A stretch of DNA of 42,061 nucleotides. Origin: a virus. The notes below the pieces were generated by a model that saw only the letters and a list, made by a program, of their open reading frames with translations, did not search any database and was not told the origin of the DNA. The translations under genes were made by a program, and so were the position numbers. Below are positions 22,239 to 40,977 of this stretch, in pieces; position 1 is the first letter of the stretch, and each line of letters starts with the position of its first letter. The stretch lies in IMG/VR virus record IMGVR_UViG_3300033141_003201, positions 1 to 42,061 of that record; one strand, 5' to 3'.

Positions 22239-22535
22239 ATGAAAGAAGAACTTAAACAAATAATAGAAGAATTAAGCGAAGTTATAGACGAAGAAAGATT
22301 ACAAATATTAGATAGAGATTTACTTGACTTTGCTTTAAGATTATATAATACACAAATAATTAATATAAAATTTAAATCTAACAAATTAAATAATGAATTA
22401 AAACCAAGTGAAAGAGATTTGAAACCAACAGAAGCACAAATTAAAGCTTGTAAAAAATTAAGAATAACTATTCCAAAAGATTCAACTAAAAAAGATGTTT
22501 GGAAATTAATGAACAAAAAGAAGGAGGTAATTTAA
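22239..22535 (+). CDS. helical acidic protein of unknown function
   Basis: This 98-residue protein has an acidic coiled N-terminal half (EELKQIIEELSEVIDEERLQ) and a C-terminal module KPTEAQIKACKKLRITIPKD with KKDVWKLM. The latter is a small helical domain of the 'T/S-x-x-Q-x-x-x...S-x-x-D/E' type often appended to phage proteins. It heads an operon behind a leaderless promoter. No specific family named. Confidence 0.7.
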   Translation: MKEELKQIIEELSEVIDEERLQILDRDLLDFALRLYNTQIINIKFKSNKLNNELKPSERDLKPTEAQIKACKKLRITIPKDSTKKDVWKLMNKKKEVI

Positions 22536-22536
22536 T

Positions 22537-22818
22537 ATGGATGGATGTGATGTATGTGATGTTGTAGGATTGATTTTTCTTGGTTTACTTTTATTGGGGA
22601 TTGGAATTGGTGTTGGTTTAGTGATTGGAGAAGGGAGCATAGCACTATCTCAAGAAACAGCAGATAAGATTTGTTTGGATATAACTGGGGAAGAAGGGGT
22701 TGTAGCAAAAGATTGGTCAGATTTTAGTGGAGGAGAAAATAAACCAATTGAAAAAGGGGAATTATATTGTCAAATACCAAATTATGATTCAACACAATTA
22801 ATAAAGGTTGGAAAGTAA
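22537..22818 (+). CDS. single-span membrane protein with an exported domain
   Basis: SD AAGGAGG precedes ATG 22537. The 93 residues start MDGCDVCDVVGLIFLGLLLL, giving two N-terminal cysteines and one span, then an exported acidic domain (about 35-93) with ETADKICLDITGEEG and a further Cys. The cysteines could pair outside the cell. Function unknown. Confidence 0.75.
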   Translation: MDGCDVCDVVGLIFLGLLLLGIGIGVGLVIGEGSIALSQETADKICLDITGEEGVVAKDWSDFSGGENKPIEKGELYCQIPNYDSTQLIKVGK

Positions 22819-24326: not shown

Positions 24327-24596
24327 ATGGAAACAAAAAGTAGATACGAAGTAGTTGCTGAACTTGAACAACAGAAAAGAAATCTTATTAGAGAGAGAGA
24401 TGGATTAGATGATGAACTAAAGGATAAAGAGAAAGAATTAAAAGAAATAAAGAGAGATGTTGAAGATAAGGAAGAGGAGATAAAAGATTTCAAAAGTTCA
24501 CTTGTAAAATCAAAAGAAACTTTCAAAGAACTTATAGCAAGTGTCGATGATAGTTTAAAGAGATTTAACAACTTGGCAGGAAAAGAAAAAAAATAG
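24327..24596 (+). CDS. 89-residue coiled-coil protein
   Basis: The ATG at 24327 has the SD AAGGAGG about 13 bases upstream and is preferred to 24279, which lies in the hairpin. The whole protein is a charged heptad-rich helix (RERDGLDDELKDKEKELKEI and further), with no membrane span. Likely dimeric; function unknown. A structured leader for the next gene follows. Confidence 0.75.
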   Translation: METKSRYEVVAELEQQKRNLIRERDGLDDELKDKEKELKEIKRDVEDKEEEIKDFKSSLVKSKETFKELIASVDDSLKRFNNLAGKEKK

Positions 24597-24623
24597 TCAT
24601 AGAAAAAATAAAACGAAATTTGT

Positions 24624-24721
24624 CCCCTCCCTATGATACCAACCCATTAAATGGGATTAATAGATATATCTGGAAAGATACATCTCCTTAAATTGTCAAT
24701 AGGATAATTTTAACGGAGGGG
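24624..24721 (+). ncRNA. cloverleaf-like structured RNA element in the leader of a coiled-coil gene
   Basis: Four helices can be drawn. P1 is CCCCTCC (24624-24630) with GGAGGGG (24715-24721). P2 is CCCAT (24643-24647) with ATGGG (24651-24655). P3 is AGATATATCT (24662-24671), loop GGAA, AGATACATCT (24676-24685), ten pairs with one mismatch and a GNRA loop. P4 is AAATTGTC (24690-24697), loop of five, GATAATTT (24703-24710) with one GU pair. P1's right strand contains the only SD-like sequence for ATG 24735. It may therefore be a cis-acting switch, or a processed small RNA. No known riboswitch class was recognised. Confidence 0.6.
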
Positions 24722-24734
24722 ATTCATATTCAAA

Positions 24735-24929: not shown

Positions 24930-25423
24930 AAATAAAAATATGGAAAGATAAAAATAAGAATTGGATAACAGCAAAAGAATTTTTCTCTCGTTTTTCAGAT
25001 GGAGTAAAAAATATTACGCCTGTCCAAAAAATAAAAAACGAATCAAGAGCAACATTCACTATGTTTATTGGTTACTTAGTTGGTTTAGTTTCTCTAATTA
25101 TTTATAGAAAACTATTTGTTGTTCAATGGTTTACTTATGCTTTAATTATTATTTTCTTAGGTGCTTCTTGGTCTAATGCAATTAAATGGTTTGTTTTAAG
25201 ACAGCAAGTAAAATTATTTTCCCAATTTGATACGAATGCTATTGATTTAAATAAAATAATGGATAGTTTAGAAGAAGTAAAAGAAGATAAAGTAGTAGTT
25301 GTGGATAGTGAAGAAAAAAAAGGAATGTCGGAAATGGGAATTGATATGGAGAATTATGTAGATGAAAATATTCAGAAAGCGAAAGATAGAGAGATGAAAG
25401 GAGGTAATGAAAATGAAAAGTAG
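24926..25423 (+). CDS. membrane protein with two spans and acidic cytosolic tail
   Basis: In this 165-residue protein, spans lie at about 46-64 and 68-92 and are flanked by basic residues. A charged C-terminal region with EEVKEDKVVVVDSEEKKGMS follows. The last codons overlap the prohibitin gene start and provide its SD (GAAAGGAGG). The coupling suggests a role beside the prohibitin-like protein at the membrane. Confidence 0.78.
   Translation: MKIKIWKDKNKNWITAKEFFSRFSDGVKNITPVQKIKNESRATFTMFIGYLVGLVSLIIYRKLFVVQWFTYALIIIFLGASWSNAIKWFVLRQQVKLFSQFDTNAIDLNKIMDSLEEVKEDKVVVVDSEEKKGMSEMGIDMENYVDENIQKAKDREMKGGNENEK
25366..25413 (+). repeat. second copy of a segment repeated at 23882
   Basis: AAAATATTCAGAAAGCGAAA then GATAGAGAGATGAAAGGAGG here nearly equals 23882-23918 (AAATATTCAGAAAGCGAAAA, ATAGAGAAGTGAAAGGAG). 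Here it encodes the C-terminus of one gene and the SD of the next. At 23882 it is non-coding upstream of a membrane gene. Confidence 0.8.
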
Positions 25424-26264
25424 AAATATAGATGAAAGAAGCCCCTTAGAAAAAAGCATAGGGATGAAAGGAAGTTCTATTGTAAAATGGATTGGATTGG
25501 TAATTATAGTTGTAATCTTATTAAGTAGTTTTTATATAATTCCTGCTGGAAAAAGAGGAGTATTATTGACATTTGGTAAACCATCAATGGAATCAATGGA
25601 TGAAGGATTGCATATAAAAATGCCCTTAGCCCAACAGATAGTAAAGATGGATGTAAGGGAATTAAGGTTTGACGCACCAAAGGCAAGTTCAGCATCAAGA
25701 GATTTACAGATAGTGACTACAGATGTAACTTTGAATTATAAGATTTTAGCTGAAAGTGTTCCAGAATTGTATCAAGAAATAGGTTTAGACTATGAAAGCA
25801 AAATAATTGTTCCTGCTGTTCAAGAAATTGTGAAAGCTTCGACTGCGAAATATACTGCCGAAGAATTAATTACTAAAAGACCTGAAGCAAAGGATAGTAT
25901 TGAAATTGCATTAAGAGAGAGATTAATAAAAAGTGGTCTTATTGTGACAGCAATATCGATAACTAATTTTGAGTTTAGTGATGAATTTAATAAAGCTATT
26001 GAAGAAAAAGTAACAGCTCAACAGCAAAAGATTAAAGCTGAAAATGATTTGGAAAGAATCAAAGTAGAAAAAGAACAGGTAATTACTCAGGCAGAGGGTC
26101 AATCAGAAGCACAAAGACTACAGAAATTACAATTAACTCCAGAGTTAGTTACAATGAGAGCATTACAAGTTCAAGAACAAGCTATTGCTAAGTGGAATGG
26201 GGTGCTTCCGATGGTTACAGGAGGAGCAACACCTTTTGTTAGTTTAGGAAATAGCACATTTTAA
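25413..26264 (+). CDS. prohibitin/SPFH (band 7) family membrane protein
   Basis: ATG 25413 gives proper SD spacing to AAAGGAGG; ATG 25407 is only 2 bases from it. The 283 residues have an N-terminal span (about 22-42) and an SPFH domain starting IIPAGKRGVLLTFGKPSMES. Conserved prohibitin features follow: TTDVTLNYKI, VPAVQEIVKASTAKYTAEEL, LIKSGLIVTAISITNFEFSD. A helical region (about 190-245) with VTAQQQKIKAEN and EGQSEAQRLQKL precedes a short C-terminus. Prohibitins form large ring assemblies at membranes and modulate proteases. In a virus it might organise the host membrane, exclude competitors or protect viral proteins. Acquisition from a cellular host is likely. Confidence 0.92.
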   Translation: MKSRNIDERSPLEKSIGMKGSSIVKWIGLVIIVVILLSSFYIIPAGKRGVLLTFGKPSMESMDEGLHIKMPLAQQIVKMDVRELRFDAPKASSASRDLQIVTTDVTLNYKILAESVPELYQEIGLDYESKIIVPAVQEIVKASTAKYTAEELITKRPEAKDSIEIALRERLIKSGLIVTAISITNFEFSDEFNKAIEEKVTAQQQKIKAENDLERIKVEKEQVITQAEGQSEAQRLQKLQLTPELVTMRALQVQEQAIAKWNGVLPMVTGGATPFVSLGNSTF

Positions 26265-30258: not shown

Positions 30259-30288
30259 ACAAACTAAAAATAAACTTATTATTTTTTT

Positions 30289-30307
30289 GTCCCAATGTTT
30301 GTGGGAC
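30289..30307 (+). promoter_or_regulatory. hairpin after a T run, followed by TTCACACTC leader
   Basis: GTCCCA (30289-30294) pairs with TGGGAC (30302-30307), loop of 7, preceded by seven T. TTCACACTCATAATC and ATG 30326 follow. It shares the arrangement of 24267, 24624 and 26276. It may act in termination of the surface operon, in control of the next gene, or both. Confidence 0.6.
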
Positions 30308-30325
30308 TTCACACTCATAATCAAA

Positions 30326-30532
30326 ATGAAAACTAAAAAAGAAATTAGAGAATTGGAAGAAAAAATGGATGAAGCAAGAGATGAATTTTTAAGAGCAAGG
30401 GAGAATGGGGATAAAGCAGGGAAGAAAGAAGCATGGGATGAATGGGGTAAAATATGGGAGAAATATTTAGAAGCAAAGAGGGAAAATGAAAAATGTAAGA
30501 AGTGTGCTGAAAAGTGTAGGTGTAGAAAATGA
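30326..30532 (+). CDS. charged helical protein with C-terminal cysteine cluster
   Basis: ATG 30326 lies just after the hairpin leader; the longer frame from 30245 would include the hairpin. The 68 residues form a charged helix (RELEEKMDEARDEFLRAREN) ending KCKKCAEKCRCRK, a possible zinc site. The same Cys cluster is encoded again at 31006, with nearly identical DNA. The stop overlaps the next start. Confidence 0.75.
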   Translation: MKTKKEIRELEEKMDEARDEFLRARENGDKAGKKEAWDEWGKIWEKYLEAKRENEKCKKCAEKCRCRK

Positions 30533-34955: not shown

Positions 34956-34983
34956 AAAAAAAGTGCGGGTTTGAAGTCCCCGC
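34956..34983 (-). terminator. stem-loop plus T run ending the minus-strand small-gene operon
   Basis: On the minus strand GCGGG(GACTTCAAA)CCCGC is followed by AC and seven T (34956-34962). It lies about 95 bases after the stop of the last gene (35078). A perfect 12-bp palindrome CACTAATTAGTG sits between at 35024-35035. Confidence 0.65.
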
Positions 34984-35077
34984 TGTTATTTGAAGGAGTG
35001 TGATAAAGATTATAAAAAACTCTCACTAATTAGTGGAATTCTTTATTTTATAACCTCTCCCTCAAATGTTAAAAAAT

Positions 35078-37784: not shown

Positions 37785-38810
37785 TTATTCAAAATCTTCA
37801 GTATCTTCTTCTTTTTCATTAGATTCAATCAATTTTTTATCCAATTTATCAATATTTCCTTTCTTTTCCTCAATTTCTCTAGATAAATCACTCTTATTTT
37901 TCTTTTTACCCTTGGTTTTACCATTTTCCTTATCAATTTTATCCTTTGTAGAAGCAACATCACCAAATTTGGCACAAATTTTAGCGATTTGTTGAAAAGA
38001 AAGCATAATATCATAGTCTGCAATCAAATTAGCTAGTTCTTGGTATGTTAATTGGGTATTTTTTCTTAATAAGTATAAAATTAAATCTCTTTGTTCCTTA
38101 TATCTAACTTGGGCAGAACTCATTGAAGTCTTTTCAGAGTTAGCAAGTGCCTCTTCCTTCATTTTTCTATATTTCTTCTCAAGTTTTTCATTTCCTAATG
38201 CAAACTTTCCATAAAATCTTCCCCTAAAATTACTTTTAACATACTTTGAATTGTATGACATCGTCTTTGCACCCAATAAGATAAGTAATTTCTTCAATCT
38301 ATAATTATAAAGTTTAAAATATCCTCTTCTTCCATGTAATTCAAACACATGTATCAAAGCTCTTGTTCTAAATATAGCCATATACCTATCTAAAAGAAAA
38401 ATTGTTGGTAAAACTACTATAATACATAAGTTTTTTTGTCTCATTTGCATTGCCAAGCTAACTAAGACCTTATTTATTGGAGAAAGACTTGCTCTTGAAC
38501 TAAATCCAGTGAAAGCTTCATCATAAATTATACATTGTCCTTTCTTTGCACCCAAAACTGCTTCACGAAAATCATCTGGAGTAAAAACAATACGGGAAAG
38601 ATTTAAAGTTGGGTCAATATATTTTCCTAATTGTAAAGCAAAGGTTGATTTTCCACTTCCTTCCCTCCCATCCAAACAAACCACAAAGTCTTTATCCTTT
38701 TCGTGAAGTGAAGGGATAACTTTTTTATCTAAAGAGTTTTTTAATCTATCATCTATATAGTATTCAATTACATTTCCAGTTTTTTCTTCAGTTATTTTAG
38801 CAGTTCCCAT
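37785..38810 (-). CDS. P-loop ATPase (Zot/packaging-like)
   Basis: In this 341-residue protein, Walker A is GREGSGKST at about 48-56, Walker B CIIYDEAF at 93-100, and a later strand NLCIIVVLPTIFLLD (127-141) is followed by an Arg-rich segment (FRTR). A coiled and very charged C-terminal region (about 210-341) contains a small HTH-like stretch (LTYQELANLIADYDIM, FQQIAKICAKFG) and ends EEDTEDFE. It matches the general layout of Zot/FtsK-related ATPases used by archaeal and filamentous viruses for genome packaging or extrusion. The HTH suggests direct DNA binding. It lies two bases after the preceding gene in a type A operon. Confidence 0.85.
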   Translation of the reverse strand: MGTAKITEEKTGNVIEYYIDDRLKNSLDKKVIPSLHEKDKDFVVCLDGREGSGKSTFALQLGKYIDPTLNLSRIVFTPDDFREAVLGAKKGQCIIYDEAFTGFSSRASLSPINKVLVSLAMQMRQKNLCIIVVLPTIFLLDRYMAIFRTRALIHVFELHGRRGYFKLYNYRLKKLLILLGAKTMSYNSKYVKSNFRGRFYGKFALGNEKLEKKYRKMKEEALANSEKTSMSSAQVRYKEQRDLILYLLRKNTQLTYQELANLIADYDIMLSFQQIAKICAKFGDVASTKDKIDKENGKTKGKKKNKSDLSREIEEKKGNIDKLDKKLIESNEKEEDTEDFE

Positions 38811-38812
38811 AT

Positions 38813-39232
38813 TTATTCAAAGTCATCCATATCAGAAGTTTTATATGCTGTTCCTTTTCCTTGCGAATTCTGTAATCTTCTCAAGTAAACAGATTTTTTA
38901 AGAAGTAATTGATATTGGACTGGATTATTTTCATTATCTTTTTGTTCAAAACCAATTCCAATCTTAGATTTTAAACTTCCTTGTTCATATATTTTTAAAT
39001 TAATAGATTGAATCTTTTTATCAACTTCTCCACCCTCTTCTTCATCTCCCCCAAGTATTGCCCATATAGAATCTAATTTAATATTCCAAATATCATATTT
39101 TCCCTGTGCCATGAAATTATAAGATTCAATCCAAAGTTTTTCTAATGTAGAATTAATTAATCCAGCAGCGTTAATTCTTGATGTTTGACTATCTTCTTCA
39201 GCATCTTTGTTATAGTCTTTATCATAAACCAT
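38813..39232 (-). CDS. hypothetical protein paired with the ATPase
   Basis: ATG 39232 is exactly 29 bases from the TATA core at 39254-39261. The 139-residue protein has an acidic N-terminus, a helix with NSTLEKLWIESYNFMAQGKY, an acidic loop GGDEEEGGEVDK and a strand/helix end. It finishes SDMDDFE, similar to the EEDTEDFE end of the ATPase, so both tails may bind a common partner. Function unknown; an ATPase cofactor or adaptor by context. Confidence 0.8.
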   Translation of the reverse strand: MVYDKDYNKDAEEDSQTSRINAAGLINSTLEKLWIESYNFMAQGKYDIWNIKLDSIWAILGGDEEEGGEVDKKIQSINLKIYEQGSLKSKIGIGFEQKDNENNPVQYQLLLKKSVYLRRLQNSQGKGTAYKTSDMDDFE

Positions 39233-39253
39233 TAAATAATTTAATGTATAGGT

Positions 39254-39268
39254 TTTATAAATATCGTT
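39254..39268 (-). promoter_or_regulatory. type A promoter of the ATPase operon
   Basis: On the minus strand AAACGATATTTATAAA with core 39254-39261, ATG 29 bases downstream. It is back to back with the coat-gene promoter at 39308. Confidence 0.88.
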
Positions 39269-39307
39269 TATAAGATATTATAAAGAATTAGAAAGATTTA
39301 ATTTTCA

Positions 39308-39397
39308 ATCGATATTTATAAAACTTTATTTTGTAACTTCTTAATGATACATAATTCATATTTCAAGTTTCGCTTGAATTCTTTAAGGGGGGATAAC
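39308..39397 (+). promoter_or_regulatory. type A promoter and structured leader of the first coat gene
   Basis: ATCGATATTTATAAA (39308-39322) is followed by a leader of about 55 bases. The leader has the hairpin TTCAAG/CTTGAA (39362-39367 with 39373-39378) and AATTCTTTAAGGGGGG as ribosome site. The block is repeated at 40523-40612 with few changes. Confidence 0.88.
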
Positions 39398-39399
39398 TC

Positions 39400-39618
39400 A
39401 TGCTAGGGAATATAATTGGGGGCTTTATTGTAATTTTAGTTGGCACAGCGCTTCTTCCAACTGTCGCGCAACAGGTTGGAACAGCTCAAGGAGATGGTAA
39501 TGTTACAGGAGCTGCAGATACATTAGTTGGACTTACAACTTTGTTCTTTGCTCTCGCTATTGCTACAAGTGCAATCGGGATAGCGGCTCAAGGGCTCAGG
39601 AATTCAGGACTTATCTAA
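39400..39618 (+). CDS. putative major coat protein, copy 1
   Basis: This 72-residue protein begins MLGNIIGGFIVILVGTALLP, continues TVAQQVGTAQGDGNVTGAAD and ends LRNSGLI. Two hydrophobic helices (about 4-21 and 43-62) are joined by a short exported loop. Two-helix proteins of this size are major coat proteins in spindle-shaped archaeal viruses; the assignment is by layout, not recognised homology. Strong promoter, structured leader, six-G ribosome site and duplication all suit a highly made protein. Codon choice is less A+T-biased than elsewhere (GCGCTT, GTCGCG, GGGCTC). A pilin-like filament subunit is the alternative. Confidence 0.85.
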   Translation: MLGNIIGGFIVILVGTALLPTVAQQVGTAQGDGNVTGAADTLVGLTTLFFALAIATSAIGIAAQGLRNSGLI

Positions 39619-39655: not shown

Positions 39656-39741
39656 GAAAAGTGAAGAATAAAAGAGTAAAACTTAGAAAAGAATTTATTT
39701 GTTTATTCTTCATTTAACTTTTTGTTTATTATTTAGGAATA

Positions 39742-39749
39742 TTTATAAA
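39742..39749 (+). promoter_or_regulatory. TATA box of the homing endonuclease between the coat genes
   Basis: GGAATATTTATAAAC; core TTTATAAA at 39742, exactly 29 bases before ATG 39771. The CGAT part of type A is replaced by GGAAT. Confidence 0.75.
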
Positions 39750-39770
39750 CCAGAGTTTCGTAATCTTCTT

Positions 39771-40523
39771 ATGAAAGAAGATGGATATTTTAAGAAAGGA
39801 AACACCCCTTGGAATAAAAATAAAAGAATGAATCTTAATTTAAAAAAGATTGAGAAAGAACATATTAAAGGAAAATCAATTTTGGATATTTCTAAAGAAT
39901 TGGGGGTTAGTGATAGATTAATAAGTTTAAGGTTAAAAGAAAATAATATGTTTGTAAGAGATAAAAAAATACCTTCAAAAGATACAAAGGATAAGATAAG
40001 GAATACAATGAAGGAAAAGGGGATACAACCAAGAGAAATATATTCTGGAAAACCCACTAAAGGTTGTTTTAAAAAAGGAAATCTATCTTGGAATAAGGAT
40101 AAAGTTGGATTACAAATTTCAAATAAGAAAGGAAAGAAATTTGGAGAGTTATATGATGAAATAAAGACAAAGAGAATTAAAAGAATGATTAAAGATAGTA
40201 GAAAAAAACAAATATTTCCACTTAAAGATACTTCAATAGAAATTAAAATTCAGAACTTTCTTAAGCAATTAAACATAAACTTCTTAACTCATCAATACAT
40301 AAAAGAAATTGAACACGGTTATCAATGTGATATTCTAATTCCTTCAATGAATTTGGTAATAGAAACGGATGGAGACTACTGGCATAAATATCCAATAGGA
40401 AATGATATTGACCATATTAGAACGAAGGAACTTCTTGAGAAAGGATTTAAGGTTTTAAGACTTTGGGAATTTGAAATTAAGAAAATGGAATTAAATGATT
40501 TCCAAAGCAAACTTCTTCTCTAA
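39771..40523 (+). CDS. homing endonuclease: Vsr-like nuclease with a different DNA-binding N-terminus
   Basis: The start is fixed by the TATA distance; an open frame upstream to 39699 precedes the promoter. The 250-residue product has NUMOD-like units (YFKKGNTPWNKNKRMN, CFKKGNLSWNKDKVGL) flanking an HTH (KSILDISKELGVSDRLISLR). Its last 100 residues nearly equal those of the 13909 gene product (YQCDILIPSMNLVIETDGDY, WHKYPIGNDIDHIRTKELL). Core acids and YWH are kept. It sits between two coat-gene copies. Its stop codon fuses with the next type A promoter. Confidence 0.9.
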   Translation: MKEDGYFKKGNTPWNKNKRMNLNLKKIEKEHIKGKSILDISKELGVSDRLISLRLKENNMFVRDKKIPSKDTKDKIRNTMKEKGIQPREIYSGKPTKGCFKKGNLSWNKDKVGLQISNKKGKKFGELYDEIKTKRIKRMIKDSRKKQIFPLKDTSIEIKIQNFLKQLNINFLTHQYIKEIEHGYQCDILIPSMNLVIETDGDYWHKYPIGNDIDHIRTKELLEKGFKVLRLWEFEIKKMELNDFQSKLLL

Positions 40524-40614: not shown

Positions 40615-40833
40615 ATGTTAGGAAATATTATAGGTGGCTTTATTGTAATTTTAGTTGGCACAGCGCTTCTTCCAACTGTCGCGCAACAGGTTGGATTGGC
40701 ACAAGCTGATGGTAATGTTACAGGAGCTTCAGACACATTAGTCGGATTAACTACTCTATTTTTCGCTTTGGCAATTGCTACAAGTGCAATCGGGATAGCG
40801 GCTCAAGGGCTCAGGAATTCAGGACTTATCTAA
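40615..40833 (+). CDS. putative major coat protein, copy 2
   Basis: This 72-residue protein differs from copy 1 at only a few positions in the loop (GLAQADGNVTGASD versus GTAQGDGNVTGAAD). The DNA for both spans is almost identical, including a block of about 55 identical bases around the GGCTTTATTGTAATTTTAGT start, while the loop region differs at synonymous sites. That pattern fits duplication followed by partial gene conversion. Two similar coat proteins could be made together or represent an alternative version. Confidence 0.87.
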   Translation: MLGNIIGGFIVILVGTALLPTVAQQVGLAQADGNVTGASDTLVGLTTLFFALAIATSAIGIAAQGLRNSGLI

Positions 40834-40861
40834 ATAGAGAAACAAACAAGATGTTACATAA

Positions 40862-40932
40862 GGGAGAGATGAGATGAAGGCAGAAACCATAATGGCTGTT
40901 AGTTCATCGGATAAATCTCTCCCTCTTTTTTT
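40862..40932 (+). terminator. long stem-loop with T run (terminator or small structured RNA)
   Basis: GGGAGAGAT (40862-40870) pairs perfectly with ATCTCTCCC (40915-40923). Inside, GATGAA can pair with TTCATC and CCAT with ATGG. A run of eight T follows at 40925-40932. It lies 28 bases after coat copy 2. The multi-branched inner part is more than a simple terminator needs, so a stable 3' end or a separate small RNA is possible. Confidence 0.7.
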
Positions 40933-40977
40933 TCTTTTATCTTTTTTTAATGGGGGTTTTATTTGTAATAATTTATA

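Follow-up and report, generated by a model that had tools for sequence, protein, structure and literature searches.

A covariation-supported RNA pseudoknot downstream of a small coiled-coil gene in eight viral loci

The RNA that follows a small coiled-coil gene in the window, i.e., the whole stretch of DNA analyzed here (IMG/VR record IMGVR_UViG_3300033141_003201; 42,061 bases, GC 28%), contains a conserved H-type pseudoknot with two crossing stems, both supported by covariation. The order of its parts (Table 1) is the same in all eight members of the family: 5' strand of stem S1, loop L1, 5' strand of stem S2, 3' strand of S1, loop L3, and 3' strand of S2. The upstream gene is a constant partner, and its N-terminal sequence METKSRYE is invariant in 8/8 members in the protein alignment. 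The members are the window (W), a contig of the archaeon BMS3Abin17 (B), the virus contig G004, and five further viral loci (L041–L045) that were found by searching with an alignment of the METKSRYE gene.

Stems, loops and covariation

An earlier note on this DNA had described a cloverleaf-like element at 24624–24721, with a closing stem around three inner hairpins. All four stems are indeed present, and together they make up both the minimum-free-energy and the centroid structure. In the comparison proposed in that note, the element folds better than shuffled sequence (−28.9 kcal/mol, versus −19.65 ± 2.88; z = −3.21), with none of 200 shuffles as good, and only 2 of 5,997 segments of 98 nt, taken from both strands of the contig, fold better once GC content is allowed for. 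Including more flanking sequence lengthens the closing stem to 9 bp, the S2 of Table 1. Three other regions also have unusually stable predicted folds: that at 34964–35075 (minus strand) is better than the element, and those at 40853–40950 and 39229–39340 are close to it.

Comparison with the homologues changed the picture of the overall shape. What they keep is the pseudoknot, not a four-way junction, and the three inner hairpins are kept in none of them. The closing stem is conserved, with compensatory changes, whereas the inner hairpins are private to this virus. The conserved structure also begins earlier than had been proposed, because the 5' strand of S1 lies outside the 98 bases. Of the earlier interpretation, a real RNA structure, here found to be conserved, is supported, but not its four-way form. 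A cloverleaf or tRNA-like fold was rejected as the conserved form, since L3 varies freely from 34 to 101 nt between members and has no common stems. Compared with shuffled sequence, L3 is mildly stable in the window (z = −2.1), and not at all in the closest homologue (z = 0.0).

Table 1. Parts of the pseudoknot and the flanking genes in the window
Feature	Position	Strand	Remark
METKSRYE coiled-coil gene, 89 aa	24327..24596	+	upstream partner of the RNA; aligned in 8 members
Stem S1, 5' strand GUCAUAG	24596..24602	+	starts on the final G of the TAG stop codon of the upstream gene; pairs with 24631–24637
Loop L1, 19 nt	24603..24621	+	A-rich, ending AAAUUU; 18–19 nt in 8/8
Stem S2, 5' strand GUCCCCUCC	24622..24630	+	closing stem of the earlier note plus 2 bp
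Stem S1, 3' strand CUAUGAU	24631..24637	+	0-nt joint to S2 in 8/8
Loop L3, 77 nt	24638..24714	+	not conserved; contains the three inner hairpins
Inner hairpins in L3	24643–24655, 24662–24685, 24690–24710	+	
Stem S2, 3' strand GGAGGGGAU	24715..24723	+	SD-like for the next gene
Tail UCAUAUUCAAA	24724..24734	+	precedes the start codon; consensus UYAUAAUCA
Coiled-coil gene, 64 aa	24735..24929	+	downstream of the element

Covariation was scored on an alignment in which the 5' module is joined to the 3' strand of S2, with most of L3 omitted; the register of S2 in it rests on the clear match of the 3' strand. Taken together, S1 and S2 are paired in 93.8% of cells, compared with 73.6% in shuffled alignments. 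There were 27 cells with double changes where shuffles gave 7.9, and the covariation score was 0.636 rather than 0.186; not one of 500 shuffles reached the observed value on any of five measures of pairing and covariation. When the partner strand was slid by 1–3 columns, pairing fell to 39–52%. For S1, 96.4% of cells are paired and six of the seven pairs have double compensatory changes; for S2, double changes occur in three of the nine pairs. The seven inner pairs of S2 stand in all members, while its two outermost positions (G·U, and A·A in most members) are conserved but mostly not standard Watson–Crick pairs.

Because S1 and S2 had first been picked by eye, we also ran an unbiased scan over every 6-bp helix that the alignment allows, 1,326 in all. 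The two stems and their one-step register shifts filled the top places, scoring 0.48 and 0.30, and column-shuffled alignments never exceeded 0.16. When the 5' module was folded alone, S1 was the predicted fold in every member. The occurrence of U-G and G-U pairs in S1 fits an RNA of the plus strand rather than a DNA structure.

Distribution, last-loop inserts and recurring tails

All seven homologues outside the window, each in another viral contig, lie directly 3' of the stop codon of a METKSRYE gene. S1 begins at that stop or a few bases after it in seven of the eight members; in L045, the METKSRYE ORF runs on into L1 and stops inside it. The element of the BMS3Abin17 contig is 92% identical to that of the window over the 5' part and 90% over the 3' part, with a middle that is 28 nt shorter and unrelated in sequence. 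In G004, the element again follows the METKSRYE gene, as it does in every one of L041–L045, although these five loci have almost nothing else in common with the window. To judge from their genes, W, B and G004 would be spindle-like viruses, while contigs G378–G382, also among the members, appear to encode DNA polymerase B-like, primase-like and tail-like proteins (assigned by eye). Three related viruses (G001–G003) have neither the METKSRYE gene nor the RNA element. No close relatives were found through the downstream and neighboring proteins, or by megablast, blastn and tblastn against phage and plasmid records.

The window and its relatives share a highly conserved hydrophobic protein of 72 aa (genes at 39400–39618 and 40615–40833) and an ATPase (37785–38810); we take the former to be the capsid protein of a spindle-shaped virus and the latter to be its ATPase. 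The putative capsid gene is thus duplicated, and a homing-endonuclease-like gene (39699–40523) lies between the copies. Another gene of the window (25407–26264) encodes an SPFH/Band_7 (stomatin/prohibitin-like) protein (Pfam E = 9.4e-34). Since the same 72-aa protein is encoded on contigs in MAGs of BMS3Abin17 and of a Candidatus ainarchaeum sp., this virus group likely infects DPANN archaea, subject to the usual doubt about binning.

In two members, L3 holds a tRNA-like insert, so the knot tolerates whole domains in this loop. That of L042 is a tRNA without an anticodon arm, which scores 33.5 bits with the Rfam tRNA model, above gathering. The L3 of L045 folds (z = −2.0) into a T-arm, a hairpin (UGCUC-GUAA-GAGUA), a D-arm and an anticodon arm, closed by a 5-bp helix; we infer from this predicted fold that it may be a circularly permuted tRNA-like domain with its acceptor end sealed by the GUAA tetraloop.

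Related sequences were also seen outside the element. Directly before the METKSRYE gene of L041 there is a full tRNA (L041:3863–3963; Rfam match of 101 nt), likely with an intron in the anticodon region; TCATAGTCACGGCGAAAGC, which flanks this tRNA, is found again after the pseudoknot of that virus. A tRNA-like sequence with D- and T-arms but no anticodon arm (GGCAGAG...CTCTGCC; L010:8518–8567, i.e., G001 ~22518–22567) lies upstream of a start codon; it has no Rfam match and resembles the insert of L042. At 30277–30329 of the window, a hairpin (GTCCCA/TGGGAC) precedes TTCACACTCATAATCAAAATGAAAAC, a tail almost identical to that behind the pseudoknot, before ATG 30327. Contig G004 has a similar hairpin with TTATAATCAAAATG at its end, and there is one more in G382.

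A possible gate on translation, and the upstream partner

As to function, we tentatively favor a gate, formed by an intercistronic pseudoknot, on translation of the next cistron, although with somewhat less than even confidence. It is the likeliest function because in six of the eight members the 3' strand of S2 is also the SD-like sequence of the next gene, with the start codon 8–17 nt beyond S2 and no other SD between. In the window, GGAGGGG is, as had been noted earlier, the only SD-like sequence ahead of ATG 24735. Pairing of the 3' strand with the anti-SD was calculated at −12.3 kcal/mol in W and −12.8 in B; the remaining members gave −8 to −12, with L041 (−6.2) as the exception. Within S2, pairing to a C-rich strand that resembles the anti-SD would keep this strand closed. 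With S1 at or close behind the METKSRYE stop in seven members, a ribosome terminating there would open S1 and so relax the knot. How strongly the next gene is expressed would then depend on whether METKSRYE is translated, or on a factor bound to the knot.

Several observations count against the gate. Unlike the constant upstream gene, the one downstream differs between members: a small coiled-coil gene similar to the 64-aa gene of the window follows the element in B, and other genes do so in the remaining members. L041 and L043 have, well past the element, a separate SD for the gene that follows; the earlier suggestion that the structure hides the ribosome site may apply to the other six members. 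Compensation within S2 has left G004, L041 and L042 with a poorer SD match (GTGGG, GCAGG), so what is kept is the pairing rather than the SD. The spacing from SD-like strand to start codon is long and variable. Moreover, S2 on its own is worth −13.8 kcal/mol in the window and could stay shut after S1 has melted. Finally, termination-reinitiation is reported to be nearly abolished by ~20 nt in Haloferax and E. coli (PMC10666635); on that basis, reinitiation over 138 nt is unlikely, and coupling would have to act by melting the structure.

The constant upstream and variable downstream gene would be explained if the pseudoknot were a 3' UTR or processed stable RNA of the METKSRYE transcript, forming with the METKSRYE protein an RNA–protein module to which the next gene is incidental. 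All eight METKSRYE genes carry the pseudoknot, L1 is invariant in length and sequence, and L3 takes whole tRNA-like domains in the manner of a scaffold RNA. In addition, a model of the 5'-module RNA, blind to the gene, turned up no convincing further copy: 265 kb of viral and related sequence gave only the eight members, and 458 archaeal genomes (371 + 87) only the BMS3Abin17 contig and borderline matches lacking the METKSRYE gene. Weak matches of the model in MAGs (L052–L057 and L069) were taken as chance, having neither that gene nor, in the sequence inspected by eye, a convincing second stem.

However, the homologues were collected via the METKSRYE gene, so that the count of eight out of eight is in part ascertainment; the start codon follows closely after S2, with a recognizable tail, in six of the eight; and sequence-family searches found no known RNA-binding domain in the METKSRYE protein. 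The same protein gave no confident Pfam or PHROG family (coiled-coil matches were weak and below the Pfam cut-offs), and only weak coiled-coil similarity to PDB sequences. We regard a module of this kind as possible and, because the collection was biased towards METKSRYE neighbors, rank it only a little below the gate. Its wider form, which we think somewhat doubtful, is a portable module in which protein and RNA travel together between unrelated, presumably archaeal virus types (spindle-virus-like and tailed-virus-like). The knot would then serve as a scaffold with room in its last loop for tRNA-like domains, the putative circularly permuted one of L045 among them.

The position of the element directly after a stop codon would also suit an mRNA stability or processing element, i.e., a block to 3'–5' decay or a processing site between two cistrons. 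The hairpins with UYAUAAUCA tails before other starts (30289–30329 in the window, and those of G004 and G382) and the similar tail after a tRNA in L041 are consistent with this. Such an element would, however, need neither the strict length of L1 nor its conserved sequence, and its S1 would be melted repeatedly by terminating ribosomes; we consider it unlikely. In known readthrough signals a pseudoknot stands right behind the stop codon, and the present layout is the same, raising the idea of a recoding signal for stop readthrough or frameshifting. This was rejected, as highly improbable, on the frames and the tandem stops: the latter are present in W, B, G004 and L041, and the distance from stop to S1 varies among members, leaving no common frame. 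There is also no conserved peptide and no common slippery site, and the ORF of L045 ends inside L1.

Relation to known RNAs and significance

The SAM-II riboswitch is an H-type pseudoknot that can have a long insert in its last loop and can occlude an SD with the 3' strand of S2. The present element resembles it (RF00521; long-loop variants RF01726) in the first two respects and plausibly, for six of the eight members, in the third; with its invariant A-rich loop containing AAAUUU it could be imagined as a ligand sensor built like the SAM-II or preQ1 riboswitch. It differs from SAM-II, however, in its archaeal-virus context, its constant upstream gene, its other loops and its L1 of 18–19 nt, and the covariance models RF00521 and RF01726 gave no match. 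Consistent with the earlier impression that it was no recognizable riboswitch, the window element matched no Rfam 15 family at gathering score; at E up to 10, only a chance match on the other strand (E = 2.8) appeared around it. At E = 0.05, the loci of six other members yielded no SAM-II, preQ1 or other riboswitch; within the element itself, only the embedded tRNA-like domain of L042 reached gathering. Since, furthermore, the downstream genes have no common metabolic theme and there is one copy per virus, bound to one upstream gene, we judge a riboswitch improbable. The Rfam models of self-cleaving ribozymes (HDV, twister, pistol and hatchet) also failed to match.

In the repZ mRNA of IncI-type plasmids and the timP type I toxin mRNA (PMC11228461), a pseudoknot lies close to an SD, and translation is controlled by an upstream ORF or a structural switch. 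Unlike our element, these are bacterial systems in which the knot activates translation, and we saw no sequence relation. The STAXI RNA, located beside phage-type genes, and the phage-borne manA RNA are likewise candidates from comparative genomics; both are pseudoknotted, manA only tentatively so (PMC2864571). They differ in being bacterial and cyanophage RNAs, STAXI being moreover a tandem repeat, and Rfam gave no match to either here. Ornate phage RNAs such as GOLLD are, like the element, structured and linked to phages, but they are far larger and without an Rfam match here. Such RNAs are associated with tRNAs.

Searches of the open-access literature gave no paper linked to such an element, and structured RNAs of DPANN-archaeal viruses appear to be hardly described. 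H-type pseudoknots that hide an SD are already known from SAM-II; what appears to be new is the RNA family. The eight members appear to be the first of an undescribed family, whose viruses probably have, at least in part, DPANN hosts: a covariation-supported knot with a fixed partner gene, common to otherwise unrelated viruses and accepting tRNA-like insertions. For viruses with mostly uncultured hosts, it offers a concrete way to test ideas on gene control or RNA–protein modules.
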